Below, piece after piece: positions 1 through 15,070 of a DNA stretch of 64,000 nt. This DNA comes from Parvularculaceae bacterium (GTDB lineage: Bacteria > Pseudomonadota > Alphaproteobacteria > Caulobacterales > Parvularculaceae), in assembly GCA_021776475.1 (NCBI GenBank), contig JAJFFV010000005.1, forward strand, positions 992,001 through 1,056,000, written 5' to 3'. The notes beneath the pieces were generated by a model. That model did not search any database and was not told the origin of the DNA. It was given only the letters and a program-made list of their open reading frames with translations. The first letter of the stretch is position 1. The number at the start of each line of letters is the position of its first letter. A program made the position numbers and the translations under genes.

Positions 1-831
1 TACGTCATTGTCTTCAGGTAATTGATCCGGCATGATCGCCGGGCCGATGGTGATTTTGAAGGTACGGCCTTTTTTGTTGAGCAGTTCGTGAAACAACGTC
101 ATGTCGCGCAGTTCTTCGTTGACGTCCCAGAACCAGTAATAAAGCCAAGAGTTGCGGCTCACCATATGCGCCGGGATGATCGGGCATTTATATTTTTTAG
201 GTAGTTGGGATACGGAGTTCATCCAGGGTTGCTCAGTCAGCACCTTGTTTTCGTCCATAAAGGCAAGGCGCCCTGACGGAAACAGAACAACGGCCATGCC
301 GTTTTTGAACGCTTGCGCTGTGCGTACCAGTGTTTCGCGAGATTTGGCGCGGGATTTGTCTTCCTCACGCCACGGCACGGAAATAATCATTTCAGCCAGT
401 TTCGGGTTCAGCCGGGTGGCATCTTCGTTGGCAAAAAAAGTCATGTCCGGGCGCATTTTTTTCAGAATATCATAAATCGCGACACCGTCGGCAATACCGG
501 TCGGGTGATTGATCGCCATCATAAAGGCGCCATCTCGCGGTATATGTTCCAGTCCTGTTACATCGAGTTCAATATCGAGCATTTCGCTGACATACTCAAA
601 TGTATCGTGGGCAGAATAATCACCGGCTTCATCAACCATTTGAACAGCGCGTTGATAACCGAGAAGTTTGTTTAGAAAGAAACGGTAGACTGGCCACCAG
701 CGGCTGCGGCTAAGCTTTTTTGCGCGCTCCAGGATCAGTTGATCGACAATATGATGATACTTTTTGGCATGCGCCTGCACCCTGGCGCGGCGGCGCTGTT
801 CTGTCTTTTTAAGGGGGGTGGTATCATCCAT
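1..831 (-). CDS. Lysophospholipid acyltransferase family protein (partial, C-terminus off the window)
   Basis: 277 codons read without a stop from an ATG at 831 down to base 1, so the C-terminus is missing. The PlsC-type acyltransferase block I is seen as NHPTGIADG (residues 108-116) and block III as FPSGRL (184-189). The His-Asp spacing is HX5D (H109, D115) rather than the HX4D of classical PlsC; the COG3176 haemolysin-like/lyso-lipid acyltransferase branch has the longer spacing. It probably transfers an acyl chain to a lysolipid at the inner face of the cytoplasmic membrane, but the substrate cannot be read. It lies 43 bp downstream of rph on the same strand and may be co-transcribed with it. 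Confidence 0.8.
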   Translation of the reverse strand, partial: MDDTTPLKKTEQRRRARVQAHAKKYHHIVDQLILERAKKLSRSRWWPVYRFFLNKLLGYQRAVQMVDEAGDYSAHDTFEYVSEMLDIELDVTGLEHIPRDGAFMMAINHPTGIADGVAIYDILKKMRPDMTFFANEDATRLNPKLAEMIISVPWREEDKSRAKSRETLVRTAQAFKNGMAVVLFPSGRLAFMDENKVLTEQPWMNSVSQLPKKYKCPIIPAHMVSRNSWLYYWFWDVNEELRDMTLFHELLNKKGRTFKITIGPAIMPDQLPEDNDV

Positions 832-874
832 TTCGGCGTGAATCTATGGTAGTTGGCGCGAAAACGCCAGTACT

Positions 875-1585
875 CTAAAGGGCGTTGTCCTGAAGATTTT
901 TCAGATCACCGCAGGCATTTTTGGCGAGGGTAAGCAAGGCCATGAATTGCTCCTCTGTGAACGGATCACCTTCGGCTGTCCCCTGAATTTCAACAATGCC
1001 GCCTGACCCCGTCAGCACAAAATTGGCGTCTGCTTGCGCCGTGGAATCTTCCGGGTAATCAAGGTCACATACAGGCGCGCCGTTGGTCAGCCCACACGAA
1101 ATGGCAGCGACGCTGTCGATCAATGGCGACGCTTTGATAATGCCCTGCTCGAGGCCCCAGTTGAGGCACTGTTTCAGAGCGACGTAAGCGCCAGTAATCG
1201 ACGCCGTGCGGGTCCCGCCGTCGGCCTGAATGACATCACAGTCGATCAGGATCTGGCGCTCACCAAGTTTTTTTAGGTCGACGACGGCGCGCAAAGAGCG
1301 GCCGATTAAACGCTGAATTTCCTGGGTGCGACCTGATTGACTGATCGCTTTAGCTTCGCGCCGCATGCGCGAATGCGTTGATCGTGGCAGCATGCCATAT
1401 TCCGCGGTTACCCAGCCACGCCCTTCGCCGCGCAACCACGGCGGTGTCGTCTCATCCCAGCTTGCTGTGCAAAGCACGTGGGTATCCCCGAATTTGACGA
1501 GGCAGGAGCCTTCTGCGTGCTTGGCATAGCCAGGTGCCATCGTGACAGCACGCATTTCGTTAAAAGCACGACCGGATGGGCGCAT
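875..1585 (-). CDS. rph: Ribonuclease PH
   Basis: 236 residues, the usual length of RNase PH, a phosphorolytic 3'-5' exoribonuclease that trims tRNA 3' ends. The N-terminus MRPSGR, the block [15 protein letters not shown] and the phosphate-binding region [16 protein letters not shown] are family hallmarks, and the C-terminal half keeps [15 protein letters not shown]. An AGAGGA Shine-Dalgarno lies 8 bases upstream of the ATG. The gene is transcribed away from hrcA, an arrangement common in Alphaproteobacteria, but here a strictosidine-synthase-like gene sits between the two. A 5-bp hairpin (854-869) follows the stop; it has no T-run on the minus strand, so it is not a convincing terminator. 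Confidence 0.95.
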
Positions 1586-1720
1586 GGGCTCAGTCCTCTC
1601 TTGAGGTTCACGGAAAACAGATCACTCCCTAAACCTCAGCGCCGGTTCTGTCGAGGGGCTGTTCCTGCCGCGCTGATCGGAGTAACCTGACATTTTCAGG
1701 GCAATGGAGCGAAGATAAAA

Positions 1721-2809
1721 ATGGGCAACTTTTTCAAAGTGATAGGACTTCTCGTCCTGTTGGCTACGTCCTATCTCCTGTTCTGGCCGACCGGTCTGTC
1801 ACCGCAAGCTTGGGTCTCGCCAGTCGATCAGGGACTAACCGGCGAGTTTGTGCCTAACACACGGATCAAGGAGAGCCGGCTGATCGCGATTGATGGCAAA
1901 AAGGGGCCTGAAGATATTGCGATCGGACCGGACGGGCTTCTCTACACTGGCGTTCATGACGGGGATATATTGCGCATTGATCCGGCAACTGGGGCGAGCG
2001 AGAAATTCGCCGAGACCGGTGGCCGGCCGCTGGGACTTGAGTTCGATGTTGCAGGCAACCTGATTGTTGCAGACTCAATTCGCGGGCTCCTAAGCATCAC
2101 CTCTGCAGGTAGCGTCAATCTACTGGCCGACAAGGCCGACGATGGATCGCCTCTCGGCTATGTGGACGACCTTGATATTATGCCCGACGGCACTATCTGG
2201 TTTTCTGACGCCAGTACAAAATTTTTGCCCAACGATTGGGGTGGCACAAAAGCAGCTTCGGTGGCTGAGATATGGGAAGGTGCGGGGACTGGCCGTGTGC
2301 TGACCTATGATCCTGTAACCGGCGCTGTTGAAATCAAAATTACCGGACTGGTTTTCTCCAACGGCGTTGCGGTTGACCCGCAAGGGCGGTTCGTTCTCGT
2401 CAACGAAACAGGAACCTACAGCGTATTGAAGCATTGGCTGGTTGCTGACAAGGCAGGCCAGACCGAAGTCCTGATCGACAATCTCCCGGGTTTTCCTGAC
2501 AATATCAATCGTGATTCCGGCGGCGGCTTTTTCCTTGGGCTGGTCAGCCCGCGCAGTGCCGAAGTCGACAGTTTGTCCGAGAAGCCTTTTGTCAGAAACG
2601 TTCTGTGGCGGATCCCCGGTTTTCGGGAGGCAGCTGTGCCGGTGCCCTACAGTCATCTGGTGCGGTTTGATGAAAATGGCCAAATCCTGGAAACCTGGCA
2701 GGATCCAGCCGGCAGCTATCCGGATATTACTGGTGCTGTTCGTGCAGCTGATGGCACCGTTTACGCATCGAGCCTGGAGGCCGACAGCATCGCGGCGCTA
2801 AAACCCTGA
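1721..2809 (+). CDS. Strictosidine synthase / SMP-30-like beta-propeller protein
   Basis: 362 residues with one N-terminal hydrophobic segment (about residues 5-25), then repeated propeller blades of the form GPEDIAIGPDGLLYTGVHDG, VDDLDIMPDGTIWFSDAS and FSNGVAVDPQGRFVLVNE. This pattern fits the strictosidine-synthase-like/SMP-30 six-bladed family, whose members are mostly lactonases or esterases in bacteria; I cannot assign a substrate. The N-terminal segment suggests a membrane-anchored protein facing the periplasm. A GGAG lies about 12 bases before the ATG. It sits divergent from rph and 47 bp upstream of hrcA. Confidence 0.8.
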   Translation: MGNFFKVIGLLVLLATSYLLFWPTGLSPQAWVSPVDQGLTGEFVPNTRIKESRLIAIDGKKGPEDIAIGPDGLLYTGVHDGDILRIDPATGASEKFAETGGRPLGLEFDVAGNLIVADSIRGLLSITSAGSVNLLADKADDGSPLGYVDDLDIMPDGTIWFSDASTKFLPNDWGGTKAASVAEIWEGAGTGRVLTYDPVTGAVEIKITGLVFSNGVAVDPQGRFVLVNETGTYSVLKHWLVADKAGQTEVLIDNLPGFPDNINRDSGGGFFLGLVSPRSAEVDSLSEKPFVRNVLWRIPGFREAAVPVPYSHLVRFDENGQILETWQDPAGSYPDITGAVRAADGTVYASSLEADSIAALKP

Positions 2810-2856
2810 TTGTTTGCGGTCTTGGCGTCAGGCGCAACAAGGCATAAATCATTCTG

Positions 2857-3885
2857 ATGTCGCTTTTGAACAACATTGATGACCGGACGCGCGAGATTTT
2901 TCGCCGTGTGGTTGAAGCCTACATAGAAACCGGCGAACCGGTTGGCTCCCGCACGCTAAGTCACGACGCCAAAATCAATGTCTCGCCAGCAACGATCCGC
3001 AACACATTGTCAGATCTGACCGAAATGGGTCTTCTGTATGCGCCGCATATATCTGCTGGCCGCATGCCGACAGATCAGGGCTTGCGCCTGTTTGTTGATG
3101 GCTTGCTGCAAGTCGGCGACATCACCCGCGAAGAACGCAGTGCTTTAGAAGAACAGGACAGCGCCGGACGGTCAGCGGATGATATCCTCGGCGGCCTTGC
3201 GTCACGGCTGTCCGGGCTCACCCATACTGCTGGCCTCGTCATGGCATCCAAAATTGATGCCCCTCTAAAACATATTGAGTTTGTACAGACCAGTCCCGAC
3301 AAGGCGCTGGTCGTCATGGTCTCCGGCGCTGGCGACGTTGAAAATCGGGTCGTTGATATTCCGGCAGGGCTGCCACCGGCAGCGCTGATCGAAGCCGGGA
3401 ACTACCTGAACGCCCGCCTCAAGGGGCGCACCCTGGGCGAAGCAAAGGCGCTGATCCAGCGCGAGATTGAGGAAGAAAGCGCCGCGCTTGATCGGTTAAC
3501 GGCCGAATTAGTCCAGAAAGGGGTTGCTGAGCTGACGGGCGATGGTGCCAGTCTCATCGTCCGGGGTCAGGCAAACTTGCTGACCACGGACGCCGAAGCG
3601 GATCTTGAGCGTGTGCGGATGCTGTTTGACGATCTTGAACAAAAGAAAGATGTGATTGAGCTGATGGAAGCCGCCAAGGATGGCCGCGGCGTCCGGATTT
3701 ACATCGGCTCGGAAAATCGCCTGTTTTCTCTGTCGGGATCTTCGGTGATTGTCTCGCCCTACCGGGACAAGGATCGCAATATTGTCGGCGTTGTCGGGGT
3801 GATCGGTCCAACCCGCCTGAACTATGCCCGGATTATCCCGATGGTCGATTACACAGCAGAAATTCTAACACGGCTGTTGAAATAG
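2857..3885 (+). CDS. hrcA: Heat-inducible transcription repressor HrcA
   Basis: 342 residues, normal for HrcA. The N-terminal winged helix is clear (DDRTREIFRRVVEAYIETG, then GSRTLS and VSPATIRNTLSDLTEMGLL), followed by the HrcA dimerisation core and the C-terminal block ending in PTRLNYARIIPMVDY. HrcA represses chaperone genes, classically groESL, by binding the CIRCE inverted repeat. No CIRCE sequence was seen upstream of hrcA, grpE, dnaK or dnaJ in this window, so its targets are probably elsewhere. grpE follows 61 bp downstream on the same strand. Confidence 0.96.
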   Translation: MSLLNNIDDRTREIFRRVVEAYIETGEPVGSRTLSHDAKINVSPATIRNTLSDLTEMGLLYAPHISAGRMPTDQGLRLFVDGLLQVGDITREERSALEEQDSAGRSADDILGGLASRLSGLTHTAGLVMASKIDAPLKHIEFVQTSPDKALVVMVSGAGDVENRVVDIPAGLPPAALIEAGNYLNARLKGRTLGEAKALIQREIEEESAALDRLTAELVQKGVAELTGDGASLIVRGQANLLTTDAEADLERVRMLFDDLEQKKDVIELMEAAKDGRGVRIYIGSENRLFSLSGSSVIVSPYRDKDRNIVGVVGVIGPTRLNYARIIPMVDYTAEILTRLLK

Positions 3886-3946
3886 AGCCCGTAAATGCGT
3901 AAATCCCGTTTCTTCCTGAGCCAGTCAACGCAAGAAAGAGCATTTG

Positions 3947-4573
3947 ATGAGCGATCAATCATCCAATGGTATCGACCAGAAGAGCGAGCCCGAATTAGAT
4001 GACACCCTGGAAATGGGTGAAGAGTCACTTGAGGCGCCCGGCCCGGCGCTAGAAGAGCTTGACCCGGAACAGCGGATTGCCCAGCTTGAAAGCGATCTAG
4101 AGGTTGCCAGGGACCGCATGCTGCGGCTCGCAGCTGACCTTGAGAACACCCGCCGGCGCGCTGCCCGGGAAAAGACCGAAGCAAGCCAGTATGCGCTGAC
4201 CAATTTTGCCAGAGATTTGCTCACCGTCGCCGATAACTTCCAGCGGGCGCTTGAAACAGCGCCGGCCAATCCGGCAGACGCCAGCCGCGACATTTTGAGC
4301 GGCATCATCAACGGCATCCGCCTGACCGAAAATGAGCTGATCAAGGTGCTGGAGCGCAACGGTGTGCACCGCGTTCATCCTGCCGGCGAGCCGTTTGACC
4401 CGCATCTGCATCAGGCGATCGCCGAAGTCCCAGGCAACGGCGAACCGAAGGGTCACGTTGTGGATGTTGCGCAGACCGGTTTTACGATCGGCGACCGGGT
4501 TTTGCGTGCCGCGATGGTGACGGTGTCGACCGGTGCTGGTGCAAAAGCGCCTGAAAGTACCGACGACGGCTAA
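3947..4573 (+). CDS. grpE: Nucleotide exchange factor GrpE
   Basis: 208 residues. GrpE releases ADP from DnaK. The N-terminus is acidic and low in complexity, followed by a long coiled-coil helix (about residues 45-90, with DLENTRRRAAREK) and the C-terminal beta domain with GVHRVHPAGEPFDPHLHQAI and DRVLRAAMVTVS. I chose the ATG at 3947 over an in-frame TTG directly before it (3944) because an AGAAAGAG purine run sits about 8 bases upstream of the ATG. It lies behind hrcA and, with a 44-bp gap, in front of the Slam-like gene, so the three may share a transcript. Confidence 0.96.
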   Translation: MSDQSSNGIDQKSEPELDDTLEMGEESLEAPGPALEELDPEQRIAQLESDLEVARDRMLRLAADLENTRRRAAREKTEASQYALTNFARDLLTVADNFQRALETAPANPADASRDILSGIINGIRLTENELIKVLERNGVHRVHPAGEPFDPHLHQAIAEVPGNGEPKGHVVDVAQTGFTIGDRVLRAAMVTVSTGAGAKAPESTDDG

Positions 4574-4617
4574 TCGTAAACATCTGTTAACCATGTCCTC
4601 CGAGACTTAGCCGCACG

Positions 4618-5976
4618 ATGTGGCAAGCTTGGGTTACTCCTGATCACCGGTTTTATCGGCGGTTCGTGAACGCGTTCGCAACCTGTGCGTTCTGTAGTAT
4701 GCTGCCTGCGACAATGCCCATCGCGCAGGCACAAGATCTCGAACAACAAAATATGACGGTTTCCGGCGAGCAGGCGTTAAAAATTGCGGCAGAGTTGCTG
4801 CAAAAAGGAGAGCTGGGCGAGGCCGATGCCATTTTGCAGCGTTTGGTAACTGCTAACCCGGACAAGGTTGACCGTACCCAGGTTCATTTCCTGCTCGGTA
4901 TGATTGCAGCGGCCGAAAAAGACTACCCGGCGGCAGAGAAGGTGTTGCGGCGCATTCTCGATCAGCGTCCTGATCTTATCCGGGTACGCCTCGAACTGGC
5001 GCGCGTGCTTTTTGAGCAAAAAAAAGACATCGCTGCGGCCTATCATTTCCGGTATGTGCTGGGCAATGGGCTGCCGGACGCAACAATCAAACAGGTGCGT
5101 AAATATCTGAACGCTATTGAGGCGCGCAAGAACTACAAAATCAGCCTCAGCGCTTCCCTCATGCCAAATAGCAATGTCAACGCCGGCCCCAAAGATGACA
5201 CCGTGACAGTTTTTGGCCTGCCGTTTCAGCTTGATGAAGAGGCACAGAAACGCTCCGGTGTCGGGTTATCTACGTCTCTCAATGTGGCAGCCTTTCCAAA
5301 ACTCAGCAAAAACCTACGGCTTGAAGCGCGCGCTGGTGCGCGGGTTGTTGACTACGCGAATGCCGATTTCGATGACGCCTTCTTCTCGGTGGAATTAGGT
5401 CCACGTATAAAGACAAAAAAGATGACCAGCAGTGTACTCGCGACAACCAGTCGGCGCTACTACGCTGGCCAGGGGTATTCGACCTCCTATGGTGGGCGGC
5501 TGGTTGTAACCACACCCCTGTCGAGGCGGGTGCGGTTTTCCCTGCGTGGCAGCCACGCGGATGTACAATACGATACGACGCCGGATCGCGATGGTCCGGT
5601 ATATTCAGCCGGTGTGGCGCTCACACGCATCATAGACAAAAGAACGCTTGGTGGATTGGGGGTCCAGGTGACGCGCGAGCAGACAGATGCGAACCAATTA
5701 AAAAATACACAGTATACAATGAACGCGTATCTCTCGCGGGAATTGCCGATGGGGATTACCGGCCAGATTCGTCCGGAATTTTATTTCCGAAATTTTGAGG
5801 ATTCCGGGCGCGAAGACGAGACCTACGGGCTGACATTGCAGATCACCAAGCGCGACTGGCAGTATTACGGCTTTGCACCAGTGTTCAGCTATTCGTATCT
5901 TAAAAATATCTCGAACAATGCCTTTTTCAGCTACGATCGACACTCTGCCGATGTCGGCCTGACCCGGTCGTTCTGA
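4618..5976 (+). CDS. Slam-family outer-membrane surface-lipoprotein translocon (TPR plus beta-barrel, DUF560 type)
   Basis: 452 residues. A signal peptide (residues 1-39, ending PIAQAQ) precedes TPR-like helical repeats (about 45-165, e.g. ADAILQRLVTANPD and AEKVLRRILDQRPDLIRVRL). The rest is alternating polar/hydrophobic strands that end in a terminal Phe (VGLTRSF), as outer-membrane barrels do. TPR plus barrel is the architecture of surface lipoprotein assembly modifiers (Slam), which move lipoproteins of the TbpB/LbpB/HpuA type across the outer membrane. The next gene, convergent and 58 bp away, encodes just such a lipoprotein, which strengthens the call. No strong Shine-Dalgarno is seen, so translation may depend on read-through from grpE. 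Confidence 0.82.
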   Translation: MWQAWVTPDHRFYRRFVNAFATCAFCSMLPATMPIAQAQDLEQQNMTVSGEQALKIAAELLQKGELGEADAILQRLVTANPDKVDRTQVHFLLGMIAAAEKDYPAAEKVLRRILDQRPDLIRVRLELARVLFEQKKDIAAAYHFRYVLGNGLPDATIKQVRKYLNAIEARKNYKISLSASLMPNSNVNAGPKDDTVTVFGLPFQLDEEAQKRSGVGLSTSLNVAAFPKLSKNLRLEARAGARVVDYANADFDDAFFSVELGPRIKTKKMTSSVLATTSRRYYAGQGYSTSYGGRLVVTTPLSRRVRFSLRGSHADVQYDTTPDRDGPVYSAGVALTRIIDKRTLGGLGVQVTREQTDANQLKNTQYTMNAYLSRELPMGITGQIRPEFYFRNFEDSGREDETYGLTLQITKRDWQYYGFAPVFSYSYLKNISNNAFFSYDRHSADVGLTRSF

Positions 5977-5984
5977 CACCAAGA

Positions 5985-6010
5985 AAACCTGCCAAAGCGG
6001 CAGGCTTCAT
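5985..6010 (-). terminator. Terminator hairpin between the Slam and lipoprotein genes
   Basis: CCTGCC (5988-5993) pairs with GGCAGG (5999-6004) across a 5-base loop. Read on the minus strand, the stem is followed by TTTTCTT, so it fits an intrinsic terminator for the lipoprotein gene that ends at 6035. Read on the plus strand there is no T-run, so it would stop the Slam transcript less well. Confidence 0.7.
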
Positions 6011-6034
6011 CGATCACAGGATTGATCAATCTGG

Positions 6035-7231
6035 TTAGTTCTGTTGGGAGGCCGCTTCCGGGTTTGCCCCGATAAAGCCACCGATACCTTGAACACTGCT
6101 GTTACCAAAGATCAGTGTACCACCAATCTCGTCCGCATCAGCACCGAAGAAAGCACCCTCAAGTTCGCCGACGATGGATGGGTCGGTCTGGCTCACAAAA
6201 GTGCCGGTGAATGTGTCGCCGTTGATGTTGCCAGTGCCATCAAACACATCATAGTCGAAAAAGTCTGCGCTGCCGTCGATGCCGATCTCACGGATGTCAG
6301 CGTCATAGATGAAATCCAGAATATCAGTGGTAAAGTTAAAGTTGAAAGCGATGCTGCCGACCAAGTCCTGAATGTTGTTGTTGAGAAGGATGAAGCCTTC
6401 AACGATCGCGGTGTAACTCGCGGTGCCAGAGGTTGGAATTTCATTGAGGGGCGTACGCTCGCCAAAAACGGCAGCGCCGTAGGTTTCCTGTCCGGCGATG
6501 GTCGCATCTTCCCAAATGCCGAGTGTAACGTAGTTGGTCGTACCCGCATTGTTGGTCAAATTGAGGTGGAAATAATTGACGCCATTGGAAGAATAAAAAT
6601 AGAAATCGCTGTTGCTGATCAGATCGGTGACGACGCTCTGGATTGCCGACAATAGATCCTGATCATTCGGGTCTGTGGAATCAGCAAGACCTGCCAGATA
6701 GCTGTTCACGGCATTTGGGTCACTTAAAAAAGTGTCCGCAAGAGCTGAAGCAAAACCAAAGATATATGGATTGGAAGAGATGACAACGGATTCGTTGTTA
6801 AACCTAAACCCAAGGTCAACCGGATCCGTGAGCATCACATTCTGAAAAGTTTCAGACATTGTCGAGGTGCCTGAAGTGATGTTGAACGTGAATGTGTCGG
6901 CAGTTGCGTCGTAGAACATAGTGTTGCCGTCATCAAAAAATCCGCGAACGGATTCATTGAAGACAAGGGCAGTTTGACCGGTGCCTGGGTTAACGGTTTG
7001 AACGTCAACTGTTAGGGTAGACACGCCAAGGTCAAATGTCTCGCTGACGCCATCGCCGCTGCTCGGGTGCAGGTATGAGACGTCCGTCATGATCAGGTTC
7101 TTGGACGGCGCGGGCGTGCCAGCACCACCCAACGGTACAGGATTGACGGGAGCCCCGCCGCCTGTCGATGAACACGCGGCCAGCGCCAAAACAGCGGCTG
7201 ACAGGAAAAGACAGTTTGACGTGGATTTCAT
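6035..7231 (-). CDS. Slam-dependent surface lipoprotein with TbpB-type barrel domain
   Basis: 398 residues. A lipoprotein signal ends in LALAAC (Cys20) and is followed by SSTGGG, then a long Asn/Asp/Thr-rich beta region. The C-terminal part carries the TbpB B/D barrel signature: GNINGDTFTGTF, then GELEGAFFGADADEIGGTL (from residue 355), then GGFIGA. This signature marks TbpB, LbpB, HpuA and related solute- or host-protein-binding lipoproteins. The facing Slam-like gene suggests export to the cell surface. The ligand cannot be told; iron, haem or another nutrient are guesses. An AGGA lies about 9 bases before the ATG. It is transcribed away from dnaK. Confidence 0.85.
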   Translation of the reverse strand: MKSTSNCLFLSAAVLALAACSSTGGGAPVNPVPLGGAGTPAPSKNLIMTDVSYLHPSSGDGVSETFDLGVSTLTVDVQTVNPGTGQTALVFNESVRGFFDDGNTMFYDATADTFTFNITSGTSTMSETFQNVMLTDPVDLGFRFNNESVVISSNPYIFGFASALADTFLSDPNAVNSYLAGLADSTDPNDQDLLSAIQSVVTDLISNSDFYFYSSNGVNYFHLNLTNNAGTTNYVTLGIWEDATIAGQETYGAAVFGERTPLNEIPTSGTASYTAIVEGFILLNNNIQDLVGSIAFNFNFTTDILDFIYDADIREIGIDGSADFFDYDVFDGTGNINGDTFTGTFVSQTDPSIVGELEGAFFGADADEIGGTLIFGNSSVQGIGGFIGANPEAASQQN

Positions 7232-7652
7232 GCTCCCGGTCCTCGGATCTATTTACTCACGCCCCTTGGTATCAAAACGAGGTGAATGGAAGCTTAAGCG
7301 GAAGTTGCCAGACGGTTAAATCGCGCCCCGTTCAGCCCTAGTGCGGGGCAGCTGAGCGCTGGTAGAGCAGACTGGTCAGGACATGATACTCATTCTCACT
7401 TGCGGCTCTTTATCGGTCATTGGAGAACTAAGGTGGCGCCAGAAAAATTTTTGAGAAAAACACAAATTCTGGTGATGAGGGTGGTTGCGGGGGACCAGGC
7501 GCCTGCCTATATCCCGCATGAAGCTGTCGCTCACTGGCGATAGAAAAATGGCGATAGAAAAATCACTTACTTGGGGCTGTCCGTTTCGGGTGCTTGCCAA
7601 ACACTTCGGTGTATAAGGCCCGGCCATTCAGCCTGCTAGAGGAGAAGACTTA
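7232..7652 (+). promoter_or_regulatory. 421-bp spacer holding the divergent promoters of the surface lipoprotein and dnaK
   Basis: No gene was found here. The dnaK-proximal 120 bases hold CTTG (7594-7597) followed 15 bases later by TATAAGG, a loose match to an RpoH (heat-shock sigma) promoter; this is a guess. No CIRCE repeat is present. A weak inverted repeat (GCCCCG 7325-7330 with CGGGGC 7344-7349) lies near the lipoprotein side. An AGGAGA Shine-Dalgarno precedes the dnaK ATG. Confidence 0.4.
7536..7563. repeat. Perfect 14-bp tandem duplication upstream of dnaK
   Basis: GGCGATAGAAAAAT occurs twice without a gap (7536-7549 and 7550-7563), about 90 bases before the dnaK ATG and just upstream of the candidate heat-shock promoter. 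It may be replication slippage or a duplicated regulator site. Confidence 0.9.
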
Positions 7653-9572
<1,920 letters not shown>

Positions 9573-9602
9573 AGGCAGGACTGAATTGCCCGAACCGCTA
9601 AC

Positions 9603-9648
9603 ACGGCGCCGCCCGGAACAGGACTGGCGCCGTTTGGCGATTTGGGTT
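9603..9648 (+). other. Intercistronic hairpin between dnaK and dnaJ
   Basis: A perfect 8-bp stem, ACGGCGCC (9603-9610) with GGCGCCGT (9626-9633), has a 15-base loop. A T-rich stretch (GGGTTTTT) follows about 8 bases later. It could be a partial terminator or an RNA-processing/stability element that lowers dnaJ output relative to dnaK. Confidence 0.5.
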
Positions 9649-9678
9649 TTTCGTGAAAAGTGGTAGGTCGCTGTTCTT

Positions 9679-10833
9679 ATGGCACAAGATTATTATACAG
9701 TTTTGAATGTTGCGCGGGACGCAGACGAAAAAGCAATCAAATCTGCTTTCCGCAAACTCGCCATGCAATATCACCCGGATCGCAATCAGGGTGATGACGA
9801 AGCGGAAAAAAAATTCAAGGAAATCGGGGAAGCCTACGAGGTGCTCTCTGACGACCAAAAACGTGCAGCCTATGACCGCTTCGGCCATGCAGCGTTCCAG
9901 AACGGTGGCATGGGGCAAGCCGGTGGCGGGTTTGGTGGCAAGCAGGGCTTCTCAGCCGGCGCATTCTCGGACATTTTTGACGATATTTTTGGCGAATTCA
10001 TGGGCGGTGCCAGGGCCGCTGGCGGACGCCGCAATCCGGGCCGCGGTGCGGATCTCAAACACGACATGACGATCTCATTGTCTGATGCCTATCAGGGGGC
10101 AAAAAAAACCATTACCGTTCCGTCGTCAGAGGCATGCGACCATTGTGAAGGATCTGGATCGGAACCAGGCTCAGGACCGACAGCTTGTTCGACGTGCGGT
10201 GGTCAGGGCCGGGTTCGGGCCCAACAGGGCTTTTTTACCGTTGAGCGCACATGCCCGACCTGCAACGGACAAGGACAGGTTATCACCGATCCATGCACAT
10301 CGTGCAAAGGCCAAGGCCGGCTGCGCAAGGACCGCACCTTGCAGGTAGAAATCCCCGCAGGTGTCGAAGATGGCACGCGTATCCGCCTCGCCGGGGAGGG
10401 GGAAGCAGGCGTGCGCGGCGGTCCGTTCGGTGATCTCTACCTGTTTGTGTCGGTTGGTGCCCATGAATTGTTCGAGCGCGACGGCGCGGACTTGTACTGC
10501 GTTGCACATGTCCCGATGACAACGGCCGCTCTTGGCGGCGAGATTGAGGCACCAACCATCGATGGTGGCCGAATCAAGATCAAGATCCCGCCCGGGGCCC
10601 AGCCAGGAAAAAAATTCCGCCTTCGGAGCAAGGGCATGACGATGCTGCGCCACAAAGGAACCGGCGACATGCTTGTTGAGTTGATGGTGGAGACACCAGT
10701 GAACATGACGCCGCGGCAACGAGAGCTCCTACAGGAATTCTGCGAGGCCGGTGGTGACGAAGCCTGCCCTCAATCCAAAGGGTTTTTTGCCAAGGCGAAA
10801 GACTTTTGGGCTCAGATGAAAGATGCTTCATGA
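9679..10833 (+). CDS. dnaJ: Chaperone DnaJ (Hsp40)
   Basis: 384 residues with full type-I architecture. The J domain has the HPD motif ([20 protein letters not shown]), followed by a Gly/Phe-rich stretch (about 75-115). Four zinc-binding CxxCxGxG repeats follow: [24 protein letters not shown] and CTSCKGQG. The C-terminal substrate-binding domains come last. It stimulates DnaK ATPase and delivers clients. The stop codon overlaps the dapB start (ATGA, 10830-10833), so the two are translationally coupled. Confidence 0.98.
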
Positions 10834-11648
10834 GCGATGTCTTGCGTATAGCTGTTGCCGGCTGCGCAGGCCGTATGGGCCGGACACTTCTTTACCTCAT
10901 TGAAAATGATGCTGATCTGGTTCTCGCCGGCGGCTTTGAGCACGAAGGCAGCCCACATCAAGGCAAACCGTTGGCAGGTCTTGCGCAGATCGCCAATGCT
11001 GGCCTGGTGGTCGAGCCGACAGTCGCGTCTCTCGGTAAAAAGATTGATGTGCTGATTGATTTTACGACACCGTTTGCAACCGTTGAACATATAGCGGCAT
11101 TGGTAGACAAACAGATTCCTGCTGTTATCGGCACAACCGGTTTCAAAACCGAGCAAGAGGCAGAGATTATCGAGGCCGCCAAACACATCCCCATTGTCAA
11201 ATCCGGAAATATGAGCCTCGGCGTCAATCTTTTAAACGAACTTGTTCGTCGCGCCGCAGCCAGCCTCGGTGAAGAGTTTGATATCGAGATTAGTGAAGCC
11301 CATCACCGCCACAAGATAGACGCGCCGTCCGGCACAGCCTTAATGCTTGGCGAGGCAGCTGCAAAAGGTCGCCAGGTCGATCTCGACAAAAATTCCGTGC
11401 GCGGCCGTGATCGCATCATGGCTGAACGCCAAGCCGGTCAAATCGGATTTTCGGTCACAAGAGCCGGTGGTATCATTGGTGAGCATGAAGTCCTGTTCGG
11501 ATCTGAGGATGAAGTTCTGGTTCTTTCCCACAAAGCGATGAGCCGATCCTTGTTTGCGCGCGGTGCCCTGACAGCTGCCAAATGGCTGCAAGACAAGCCA
11601 GCGGGTCTTTATACCATGCGGGATGTGTTGGGGCTCCAGGGCGCTTAA
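10830..11648 (+). CDS. dapB: 4-hydroxy-tetrahydrodipicolinate reductase
   Basis: 272 residues from the ATG at 10830, which overlaps the dnaJ stop; an in-frame TTG at 10806 lies inside dnaJ and is less likely. The N-terminal nucleotide fold reads [47 protein letters not shown] and the catalytic [15 protein letters not shown] are all diagnostic. The enzyme makes tetrahydrodipicolinate for lysine and meso-diaminopimelate (cell wall) synthesis in the cytoplasm. The dnaJ-dapB junction recurs in Alphaproteobacteria. Confidence 0.97.
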
Positions 11649-11674
11649 CGCTGTTTCTTAGGCTGTAATTAAAA

Positions 11675-11703
11675 TTTTAGGGATAAGGTCTCTGCGGTAT
11701 AAT
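11675..11703 (+). promoter_or_regulatory. Candidate sigma-70-type promoter of the aspartic protease gene
   Basis: A perfect TATAAT (11698-11703) lies 17 bases downstream of TTTTAG (11675-11680), a poor -35, and 16 bases before the ATG at 11720. The short leader would give a transcript with little 5' untranslated sequence. Confidence 0.35.
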
Positions 11704-11719
11704 TAAAGAGTTCCCCTCT

Positions 11720-12295
11720 ATGTTATCGAAAGAGATAGGTCTTGTGGCGTTGGTTGCGATGGCTTTGGCCGGCGCGGTGAAGGTCTATGACAGCGGGCTC
11801 ACTGAAAAATTGCGGGCCGGCCGCGATGCGGATCTGGTTGTGGAGATTGTTGCTCCGTCAACACCGGCCAATGGATACTCTGATATTGTCCGTATCGCAA
11901 AAAACCGTGACGGTCATTTTTATACTGATCTCATGATTAATCGCCGAAACGTCAATGTGCTGATTGATACCGGCGCGAGCATATTGGCCCTTCGTGACAG
12001 CGATGCTGAGGCCGTCGGCCTTTACCCGAAACCTGCGGATTTCAAGTTTCCTGTGAATACCGCAAACGGTCAGACCATGGCCGCCCGGATGATGGTCCAA
12101 GAAATCGAACTTGGACGCCTGACGGTCCGGGATGCAGACGTTTTTATCCTGCCCGATGAGCAGTTGGCAAAAAACCTGCTCGGCATGAACGTGTTGTCAG
12201 AAATGGGCCGTGTTGAGTTCAATCAAGCAGAATTGATCATCGAAAAACCCCTTGGTAGAACCGTGCCAGAAAGGACCTCAGCAACAGGGCAATAA
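11720..12295 (+). CDS. Retropepsin-like aspartic protease (TIGR02281-type clan AA)
   Basis: 191 residues with an N-terminal membrane segment (about 5-24). A single retropepsin half follows: the catalytic motif is LIDTGAS (Asp in DTG), and the second hydrophobic-hydrophobic-Gly element LLGMNVLSEMGRVEF lies near the end, as in the short membrane-anchored clan-AA proteases of Proteobacteria. Being half-size, it should work as a homodimer, with the domain in the periplasm. Substrate unknown. It follows dapB by 71 bp but has its own TATAAT box. It is convergent with the downstream hydroxylase gene. Confidence 0.85.
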   Translation: MLSKEIGLVALVAMALAGAVKVYDSGLTEKLRAGRDADLVVEIVAPSTPANGYSDIVRIAKNRDGHFYTDLMINRRNVNVLIDTGASILALRDSDAEAVGLYPKPADFKFPVNTANGQTMAARMMVQEIELGRLTVRDADVFILPDEQLAKNLLGMNVLSEMGRVEFNQAELIIEKPLGRTVPERTSATGQ

Positions 12296-12354
12296 CCGCG
12301 TCGAGGACCGCCTGAATGCAGGCCAGATGAAATGCCGCAACGTCGTTAGATAGT

Positions 12355-13599
12355 TCACGGTTGCATCAGACTTGGCAGGTTGCCGAGATCGCCGCCCGCA
12401 TGGCGCATAAACATCTTCCGTAAGGGATCAATCTTGTTGATAATGCCGAGGCCGGTGCTGCGGAACGCACGCACTGCGTTGTTGTCGATGGACATGAGGC
12501 GGTTAAGCGCGTCGGTGCCGTAGGCCAAAGAAGCACAGTCAAATCGGCGCCAGCGATTGTAGCGGGCAAGTTGGGTGCCGTGCCCGATATCAAGACCGGT
12601 CTGGCGCGCTTCCACAAGAACATCGTGCAGTGCCGCAATGTCCTTGACCCCCAGATTATATCCCTGACCAGCGATCGGATGAATGCCATGTGCGGCATCG
12701 CCAATAAGCGCAAGACGCTCGGCATGGAACTGGGACGCGATATGAAAGCCCAGAGGATAAGACCAGCGCGGGCTGGCGAGAGACAATTCACCCAGATAAG
12801 GACCAAACCTGGCTGAAATTTCGGCCACAAATGCCTCTTCACTCATGGCCAGAAAGCTCTTGGCCCGGTCAGATTTTTCGGTCCACACAAGAGATGAGCG
12901 ATTTTCGGTGAGTGGCAGGATGGCAAAGGGGCCCGAAGGCAGGAACGCTTCCTGGGCAATACCCAGGTGATCCCGCTCGTGCTGCACTGTGCAAACAATA
13001 CCAGTCTGACCGTAGGACCAACTGCTGGTTTTTATCTTCGCTTGTTCCCGCAAAGGAGAGCTGCGCCCGTCAGCTGCTATGACAAGTCTGGCGGAATAGG
13101 TGTCGCCTGTCTCGAGCCTGACCGAGGCCGATGCCGCGTCAGTCGACATGTCTTGGCAACGGGCAGGGGCAGCAAGAGTGATCATTTCGCTCTCGGCGAT
13201 CGCGTCATAGAACACTTGCCGCATCAGCCGATTCTCGACAATCCAGCCAAGTGGTGTTGCCGCGCCTGCGTCAGCAAGTTCGCGACTGTCAAAATGCAGA
13301 AAGCCGGGTGCCACCTTACCGCTGCGGAAACGCCCGGCCGGGCGGCCATCCGTGACCAGAATATCGTTTATCGCTGCCGCGTCACCCTCCAGCCTGTCCC
13401 ACAGTCCAAGCTTGCGGATCATTCTGACCGAAGCATAGGCCAGAGCGGTTGTGCGCCCATCAAATCCAGCGCTGGTCATCCGAGCCGGATCGTCAGCGTC
13501 AAACAGGGTGACAGAAAAGCCGGCATCGGCCAGGGCGATTGCAGCAAGAGAGCCCGTCAGCCCGCCGCCCACAATGATGATATCAGTAATGTCCGTCAT
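12355..13599 (-). CDS. UbiH/UbiF/COQ6-family FAD-dependent ring hydroxylase
   Basis: 414 residues. The N-terminal FAD-binding GxGxxG motif reads IIVGGGLTGSLAAIALADAG. The central motif VIAADGRSSPLRE and the C-terminal LIGDAAHGIHPIAGQGYNLGVKD are the standard blocks of aromatic-ring hydroxylases of the UbiH/COQ6 family. It probably hydroxylates the ubiquinone ring precursor with NAD(P)H and O2. Alphaproteobacterial members can act at more than one ring position, so I do not choose between UbiH, UbiF and UbiL. It is divergent from amt. Confidence 0.9.
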   Translation of the reverse strand: MTDITDIIIVGGGLTGSLAAIALADAGFSVTLFDADDPARMTSAGFDGRTTALAYASVRMIRKLGLWDRLEGDAAAINDILVTDGRPAGRFRSGKVAPGFLHFDSRELADAGAATPLGWIVENRLMRQVFYDAIAESEMITLAAPARCQDMSTDAASASVRLETGDTYSARLVIAADGRSSPLREQAKIKTSSWSYGQTGIVCTVQHERDHLGIAQEAFLPSGPFAILPLTENRSSLVWTEKSDRAKSFLAMSEEAFVAEISARFGPYLGELSLASPRWSYPLGFHIASQFHAERLALIGDAAHGIHPIAGQGYNLGVKDIAALHDVLVEARQTGLDIGHGTQLARYNRWRRFDCASLAYGTDALNRLMSIDNNAVRAFRSTGLGIINKIDPLRKMFMRHAGGDLGNLPSLMQP

Positions 13600-13711
13600 A
13601 ATAGGTGGATAGGAACTTCCTGCCGCGGCGTTGAGATGCTTGCCAGACTACTCAGAATGGCCGCAGAATCCAACAGATCAAACACCGGGTAACTCAGATG
13701 CGAGGCAAATT

Positions 13712-15070
13712 GTGAAATTTCTAACAATGCATACCGTAATTCTTGCCACGGTCGCCATCCTAGTATTCAGCTCTCCTGCGATAGCGCAGGATATTCAGCC
13801 TGCCTCCGAAACGGCGGGCTTTGTTTTCAACTCATCGATGCTGCTGATCAGCGGTTTGGCCATGATGTTTATGGCGGCGGGGTTCTGCTTGCTTCAGGTG
13901 GGCCTGGCCCAGTCCAAAAACGCCGCCACAATATGTCTGAACACGATCGCGGTTGTGTCCATTGCTGGGATCATGTTTTGGCTCACGGGTTATAACATTC
14001 TCTACAACGTACCTGTCGATGGATTGTTGACCCCGTTCATGGAGTGGTGGATCTGGCAACCTGGTATCGCCACTGAGCAAACGGGCAGCGGCCACTCGTC
14101 CCATGCCAGCTGGTATTTTCAGATGGTTTTTGCGGTCATCGTAGCGTCGATTGTTGCTGGCGCGCTGGCTGAGAGGATCAAGTTCTGGTCGTTTCTGGTC
14201 TTCACCATTTTCCTCACTGGTTTCGTCTACCCCATTCAGGCCTCCTGGGAATGGGGTCAAGGCTACCTTCATACGACGTGGCAGTTTGCCGATTTTGCGG
14301 GATCAACACTGATCCATTCTACCGGTGGTTGGGCTGTTCTTGCCGGCGTGATCATATTGGGACCGCGTACTAGATATGTCGGTACACGGACTGACCGGAG
14401 ACCAGCTTCGTCCGTGCCATTGGCGACATTGGGGACTTTCATTCTGTGGCTCGGATGGTTCGGCATTAACGGCGGATCTCGAATGGCAGCGGGTTCAACG
14501 GAAGATATCCTTGCGATCAGTCAGATCTTTGTGAACACAAATGCCTCGGCAGCAGCTGGCGTTTTGGCGGCGCTGGTTCTGACTTCAGTGCTCTACAAAA
14601 AGGTTGAGGCGACCGCCGTGCTCTACGGAGCGATTGGTGGTCTTGTTTCGATCTCGGCCGAACCCCTGATGCCGGCGATCTGGCAGTCGTTGGTCATCGG
14701 GGCAGTTGGCGGCGCCATTGTGACACTGGCAATCCCGCTGCTCGACCGGTTCAGGATTGACGATGCAGTCGGCGCCATCTCGGCGCATTTGCTGTGTGGC
14801 ATCTGGGGGACATTGGTGGTCGTTTGGTCAAACAATTCTACGACGACAAGCGACAATGCCCCATCAATTGTCGGGCAGCTCATTGGAATAATCATGATCG
14901 GGGTTTTCGTTTTCACGGTGTCGTCGCTGATCTGGCTAATATTGAAACACACGATCGGGATTCGTGTGATCTCGAAGCAGGAATTGAGCGGTCTTGACGG
15001 GACCGAATCTCACCAGGAGACGGTCCGGAATTCACCAGCTCAAATGAGGCAACCAGGCGAAATTCGTTAA
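13712..15070 (+). CDS. amt: Ammonium transporter, Amt family
   Basis: 452 residues if started at the GTG at 13712, which has GAGG about 6 bases upstream and gives a good signal peptide (MKFLTMHTVILATVAILVF, cleavage near AIA|QD). An ATG at 13727 lacks a ribosome site. About 11 membrane segments follow. The two pore histidines of Amt are visible in STLIHSTGGWAVLAG and ISAHLLCGIWGT. It imports ammonium or ammonia across the inner membrane. No glnK/glnB lies next to it, unlike most amt loci, so PII control would come from elsewhere. Confidence 0.92.
   Translation: MKFLTMHTVILATVAILVFSSPAIAQDIQPASETAGFVFNSSMLLISGLAMMFMAAGFCLLQVGLAQSKNAATICLNTIAVVSIAGIMFWLTGYNILYNVPVDGLLTPFMEWWIWQPGIATEQTGSGHSSHASWYFQMVFAVIVASIVAGALAERIKFWSFLVFTIFLTGFVYPIQASWEWGQGYLHTTWQFADFAGSTLIHSTGGWAVLAGVIILGPRTRYVGTRTDRRPASSVPLATLGTFILWLGWFGINGGSRMAAGSTEDILAISQIFVNTNASAAAGVLAALVLTSVLYKKVEATAVLYGAIGGLVSISAEPLMPAIWQSLVIGAVGGAIVTLAIPLLDRFRIDDAVGAISAHLLCGIWGTLVVVWSNNSTTTSDNAPSIVGQLIGIIMIGVFVFTVSSLIWLILKHTIGIRVISKQELSGLDGTESHQETVRNSPAQMRQPGEIR

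Follow-up and report, generated by a model that had tools for sequence, protein, structure and literature searches.

A predicted Slam-type translocon and its putative lipoprotein cargo between grpE and dnaK in an Aquisalinus-like bacterium

Two genes located between grpE and dnaK in an Aquisalinus-like bacterium very probably encode a Slam-type outer-membrane translocon of the type XI secretion system (T11SS) and the surface lipoprotein that it would export, a judgement that extends to the whole mechanism and history proposed below. Gene pairs of this kind are known; their long-kept single chromosomal address is less expected. The DNA analysed, hereafter the window, is a stretch of 64,000 nt, and the nearest named relatives found for its host are four Aquisalinus records, which NCBI assigns to the Parvularculaceae. 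The interval holds two open frames, 4618-5976 (+, 452 aa) for the translocon and 6035-7231 (-, 398 aa) for the lipoprotein, which are convergent and 58 nt apart. As an earlier note on this DNA had stated, the pair lies between grpE (3944-4573, +) and dnaK (7653-9572, +), with a gap of 44 nt between the end of grpE at 4573 and the start of the Slam gene. The gene order is rph, an SMP30-like gene, hrcA (2857-3885, +), grpE, Slam, lipoprotein, dnaK, dnaJ, and dapB, in which the flanking genes, also conserved in relatives, carry the names that we presume from their sequences. Inspection by eye of the frames within positions 1-14,000 revealed no recognizable TonB-dependent receptor.

By its domains and modeled fold, the protein encoded at 4618-5976 is a Slam-type translocon, with translocation itself as a predicted activity. 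It matches PF04575 (SlipAM, DUF560; 6.2e-30, 105.1 bits with a cut-off of 22) and, over residues 84-144, PF24575 (TPR_Slam; 9.9e-10, 39.2 bits with a cut-off of 35.2). Its AlphaFold model, which like that of the lipoprotein was built from five sequences, has a mean pLDDT of 76.1. A Sec signal peptide is predicted by eye at residues 1-39 (4618-4734, +), in an N-terminal stretch of low pLDDT that contains a helix (residues 11-23). Seven helices at residues 50-170 constitute the TPR region (4765-5127, +; block pLDDT of 82-93 over residues 51-170), and 14 strands at residues 173-451 form a barrel (residues 173-452; 5134-5973, +). Values below 50 are found at residues 1-46 and 184-213, the latter inside the barrel. 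The TPR-plus-barrel layout that the earlier note had read into this frame is, thus, recovered by both the profiles and the model.

The convergent gene (6035-7231, -) encodes the predicted Slam cargo. Its first 20 residues (7172-7231, -) form, by pattern, a lipoprotein signal peptide with the lipobox LAAC (Cys20), followed by a Gly-containing stretch. Fifteen of the 16 family members match the lipobox pattern, and the one that does not, G157, has LNAC instead. In the mature protein of the window, 47 D+E stand against 5 K+R. Residues 266-389 match PF01298 (TbpB_B_D; 1.1e-6, 29.6 bits with a cut-off of 26). The score against NCBIfam slam_lipo (NF041636) is 36.9 bits, which is under the curated cut-off of 80, and the protein is therefore not filed in that equivalog. 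The model has a mean pLDDT of 48.5 and is poor outside the barrel, with mostly low pLDDT in the N-terminal domain, but the barrel blocks (residues 261-390) reach 64-94 and contain eight strands at residues 270-389. Foldseek aligned this model with the C-lobe of TbpB (3.5e-9), with NHBA (9.5e-9; TM-score of 0.68 by target length and 0.28 by query length), and with hemophilin, whilst no solved structure matched significantly by sequence (TbpB at E 1.5). The claim of a lipoprotein with a TbpB-type barrel, thus, holds for the C-terminal part (residues 260-398; 6038-6454, -), which is proposed to be the part recognized by Slam, and the domains and models of both proteins support the view that they are a Slam and its substrate. 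The cargo is not a TbpB proper, which has two lobes, each with a handle and a barrel, as only one TbpB_B_D stretch and no handle-domain match at E<=1 were found. The earlier note also saw no recognizable ligand domain beyond the barrel. This is correct in that no Pfam domain was found in the N-terminal part, but residues 45-259 (6455-7099, -) can be aligned in each of the 15 relatives, with 197-215 aligned residues and 24-72% identity. Hence, the lipoprotein has a family-specific N-terminal domain besides the barrel, which is proposed to be its ligand-binding or effector part. Inserts of 20-59 residues are present after residues 169 and 187 in the lipoproteins of G050, G119, and G156.

The association of the two domains was assessed in larger samples. 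Among 150 genomes of the order, SlipAM was found in 24 and TbpB_B_D (E<=1e-3) in 16. The 16 genomes with SlipAM at E<1e-15, a line that was drawn after seeing the list and beyond which the next, weaker match is at 2e-8, are exactly the 16 genomes with TbpB_B_D, and in each of them the two domains lie no more than about 2.4 kb apart; eight genomes have weaker SlipAM matches only. The association within the order is more than chance. In a class sample of 387 genomes, scored for presence per genome, SlipAM was found in 50 and TbpB_B_D in 32, of which 26 had both; 24 genomes had SlipAM without TbpB_B_D and six had TbpB_B_D without SlipAM. Genes of this kind are, thus, not uncommon in the class. 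One genome of the class survey (G218) showed ten TbpB_B_D matches among the 10 of its 117 candidates that were scored, nine of them in frames of 1,715-3,156 aa. In G132, a frame that encodes 938 aa when counted from its first start (L054:7252-10068, -) contains two TbpB_B_D matches and adjoins a Slam gene. The genome from which the window is derived encodes two further TPR proteins with weak SlipAM matches (24.1 and 19.3 bits, of which only the former exceeds the cut-off of 22), each adjoined by an exported-looking protein, 322 or 314 aa long, that contains a FecR domain (L061:8141-9559, -, with 7157-8122, -; L062:7381-8859, -, with 6455-7396, -). Possibly, these represent another translocon-cargo pairing.

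The pairing also bears on the question whether the barrel protein could be an exporter of polysaccharides, similar to PelB, PgaA, or BcsC, rather than a translocon for lipoproteins. PelBC is the best Foldseek match of the model (4.2e-12), ahead of OmpG (5.5e-11), and BcsC also scores high; BcsC is, moreover, among the weak matches by sequence, and those to solved structures are all weak (best E 0.059). However, SlipAM and TPR_Slam both score above their cut-offs, the barrel has 14 strands, and a cargo-type lipoprotein adjoins the gene in all strong cases, 16 in the order sample and 16 in the family. On the basis of these domains and the pairing, we consider a polysaccharide exporter highly improbable and have set it aside in favor of a Slam.

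Searches for SlipAM, GrpE, and DnaK in 62 genomes of the family, with GrpE found in 56 and DnaK in 57 of them, revealed a fixed address for the pair. SlipAM matches are present in 24 genomes, eight of them weak, and the address count is based on the 16 strong ones (E<=1.9e-10). All 16 are located beside grpE and/or dnaK with a lipoprotein homolog at each locus, so the location noticed in the window recurs throughout the surveyed relatives that have a strong Slam. Ten are flanked by grpE and dnaK on the same contig (six in genus g1 and four in g3). Near contig ends, three more are beside grpE (G177, G178, and G180) and two beside dnaK (G156 and G157). In G134, Slam adjoins dnaK, and a distance of about 210 kb separates it from grpE. 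In G179, a homolog of the lipoprotein adjoins dnaK near a contig end, and Slam has no match. In 72 loci from other families, some overlapping and most with flanks of 1.5 kb, no HrcA, GrpE, DnaK, or DnaJ was detected at E<=1e-3. No such placement was found in the literature searched, the coverage of which leaves out most subscription journals, and neither dnaK nor heat shock occurs in the main text of a study on T11SS loci (PMC12282271).

The content of the interval varies. In the five g3 genomes without the pair, it measures about 0.2 kb (G109) or spans 3-7 kb that are occupied by different genes (G015, G104, G079, and G176); four of the encoded proteins were identified by Pfam as a hydrolase (G015) and two S9 peptidases (G079) or had no match (G176). 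In three genomes of the Aquisalinus group, a gene of 819-839 aa is located between grpE and Slam (L005:8664-11123, L008:8662-11181, and L141:8860-11331, all -); the one copy scanned, in L005, matches DUF305 (3.7e-47), with LVIVD just under the cut-off. In G069, a fragment of an IS4/5-type transposase (DUF4096; L141:4481-4867, +) is present between dnaK and the lipoprotein gene.

The trees suggest that the pair has been exchanged in place in one genus, as those of Slam and the lipoprotein are mutually consistent and disagree with those of DnaK and HrcA. The DnaK tree groups g1, g3, g33, and g34 (100/99). G050 and G119 are joined in the Slam (99/97) and lipoprotein (100/99) trees; this grouping, which like the others tested was named after the trees were seen, is rejected by HrcA (p 1.25e-6) and DnaK (p 0.0015), which represent the two flanks, and not clearly rejected by GrpE (p 0.07). 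Conversely, a four-genome group favored by the HrcA tree is rejected by Slam (p 0.027) and the lipoprotein (p 0.0008). To be weighed against an exchange, a single g3 clade is not rejected by the Slam (p 0.25) or lipoprotein (p 0.33) data, nor is the group of G025, G030, and G177 rejected by DnaK (p 0.073). The placement of G134 outside the other family members is rejected by the Slam data (p 0.008), a result that argues against strictly vertical inheritance from a single ancestor of the family. In the lipoprotein tree, built without an outgroup, G134 and G156 separate from the remaining 14 rows (97/96). The simplest reading of these sequence comparisons would be that the pair was exchanged in place. 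When the DNA between dnaK and the lipoprotein gene was aligned for the window, L005, and L008 (three of the six g1 genomes), the matching blocks were mainly on the dnaK side; L005 and L008 do not span the first 102 columns, so the comparison bears little on the lipoprotein side.

What the location means is a separate question. It could be functional, in that Slam would be made together with grpE and increase under heat or envelope stress, coupling surface export to chaperone supply. In 10 of the 14 family genomes that have both genes on one contig, Slam is the next gene after grpE and has the same orientation, the gap by longest open frame being less than about 105 nt. This spacing fits co-transcription, with possible read-through from hrcA-grpE, and the position is kept whilst the identity of the family Slams to that of the window is only 27-64%. 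However, 2.8 to 4 kb of other DNA separates grpE and Slam in 3 of the 14 (G114, G155, and G069), G134 has the genes far apart, and the regulatory signals point elsewhere. A dyad search found GTTG, then TATA 20 nt on, in 20 of 30 regions upstream of dnaK, with a maximum of five in five single-base shuffles, and a wider motif in 25 of the 30, which are those with loci returned out of 57 dnaK matches. This sigma-32-like motif (GTTG-N18-CCTATA), which we take to resemble the alphaproteobacterial heat-shock promoter, matches the window only once when both strands are considered, before dnaK (7484-7511, +). In 25 family loci (250,033 bases), it has 22 matches, i.e., 16 before dnaK, one before hrcA, and five elsewhere, a count to be read with the motif being derived partly from the same dnaK regions; in G155, the match is 26 nt before hrcA. 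In these loci, the 300 nt that precede grpE, Slam, and the lipoprotein gene contain no match. At one mismatch, the only site that resembles CIRCE is before what we presume from its sequence to be groES, away from this locus; at up to three mismatches, the reversed control pattern gave as many matches as the pattern itself, and a simple scan for promoters and terminators gave no more sites than shuffles. Thus, neither a dnaK-type motif nor CIRCE directly precedes Slam or the lipoprotein gene. For the lipoprotein, whose gene is, moreover, transcribed away from dnaK, the heat-shock co-expression that the earlier note envisaged is not supported and was set aside; stress coupling through Slam is in our view unlikely. 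The five dnaK regions without the motif in the form searched (L113, L118, L120, L123, and L125) are those of the five g3 genomes without the pair; perhaps, a promoter change is tied to the change of neighbor there.

Alternatively, the location could be neutral: the interval would be permissive for insertions and the pair kept by descent only, which is compatible with the Slam mechanism. The same interval also accommodates the DUF305 gene in three genomes, the transposase fragment, the hydrolase, and the S9 peptidases mentioned above, and it is nearly empty in G109. Against this, the Slam pair is the commonest content of the interval in the survey, the pair remains beside dnaK in G134, where grpE is elsewhere, and another allele may, judging by the trees, have taken its place at this site. 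On balance, we lean toward a neutral location. A bolder proposal would make the chaperone locus a fixed exchange site for surface-display cassettes, at which Slam and its lipoprotein would be swapped together by recombination between the conserved hrcA-grpE and dnaK flanks, with Slam co-made with grpE and export rising with chaperone demand; we regard it as rather improbable.

In the Slam mechanism that we prefer, the lipoprotein would cross the inner membrane by Sec, be lipidated at Cys20, and be carried to the outer membrane. There, Slam, with its 14-strand barrel and periplasmic TPRs, would recognize the eight-strand C-terminal barrel of the cargo and move the lipoprotein across. The N-terminal domain would then be exposed at the cell surface and probably bind a nutrient, a surface, or a neighbor. 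This transfer is proposed by analogy with Slam1 and TbpB, for which a requirement for Skp and the movement of unfolded TbpB through Slam1 proteoliposomes have been reported (PMC9090332). The genome contains two OmpH/Skp-family matches over the cut-off. The pair may have arrived beside dnaK early in the family and stayed, with some lineages losing it or exchanging it in situ. Meanwhile, dnaK would keep its own heat-shock-type promoter, Slam would probably be read through from hrcA-grpE, and the lipoprotein gene would have a separate promoter.

According to one account, secretion of cargo has been shown for only seven T11SS proteins, all in an animal-associated cluster (PMC12282271). The pair described here is compact, strictly paired in one alphaproteobacterial group, and found at one chromosomal address. 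With a cargo whose N-terminal domain has no assigned fold, it makes cargo recognition and ligand testable beyond the best-known members of that cluster, whilst stress coupling and exchange in place are directly testable with RNA data and more genomes.

Slam sequences have been reported in all clades of Proteobacteria (PMC5449769), and T11SS have been described across this phylum (PMC8406197, PMC12282271), including loci with barrel lipoproteins in marine Rhodobacteraceae/Roseobacteraceae (PMC12282271). The pair resembles the neisserial Slam1 and Slam2 with their substrates TbpB, LbpB, HpuA, and fHbp (T11SS cluster 1A), which are likewise described as a TPR domain with a 14-strand DUF560 barrel and a lipidated cargo with a C-terminal eight-strand barrel, often encoded by adjacent genes (PMC5449769, PMC8406197). 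In contrast to these systems, the cargo here has one TbpB_B_D stretch instead of two and an N-terminal domain of its own, no TonB receptor was recognized alongside, and the genes are convergent and located in a chaperone locus. With cluster 3 of the Rhodobacteraceae/Roseobacteraceae, the pair shares an alphaproteobacterial T11SS outer-membrane protein and a lipoprotein predicted to have a barrel, which was reported for 10 of the 11 loci studied there, at 282-375 aa (PMC12282271). Those loci contain genes for thymidylate synthase, lactoylglutathione lyase, and DUF1194 (PMC12282271), whereas hrcA-grpE and dnaK-dnaJ are found here. According to Foldseek of the model, the C-terminal barrel fold is also shared with NHBA and hemophilin/HphA, from which the cargo differs in its N-terminal domain without an assigned fold. 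Furthermore, hemophilin is described as a soluble haem carrier (PMC8406197), whereas the protein encoded here has a lipobox.
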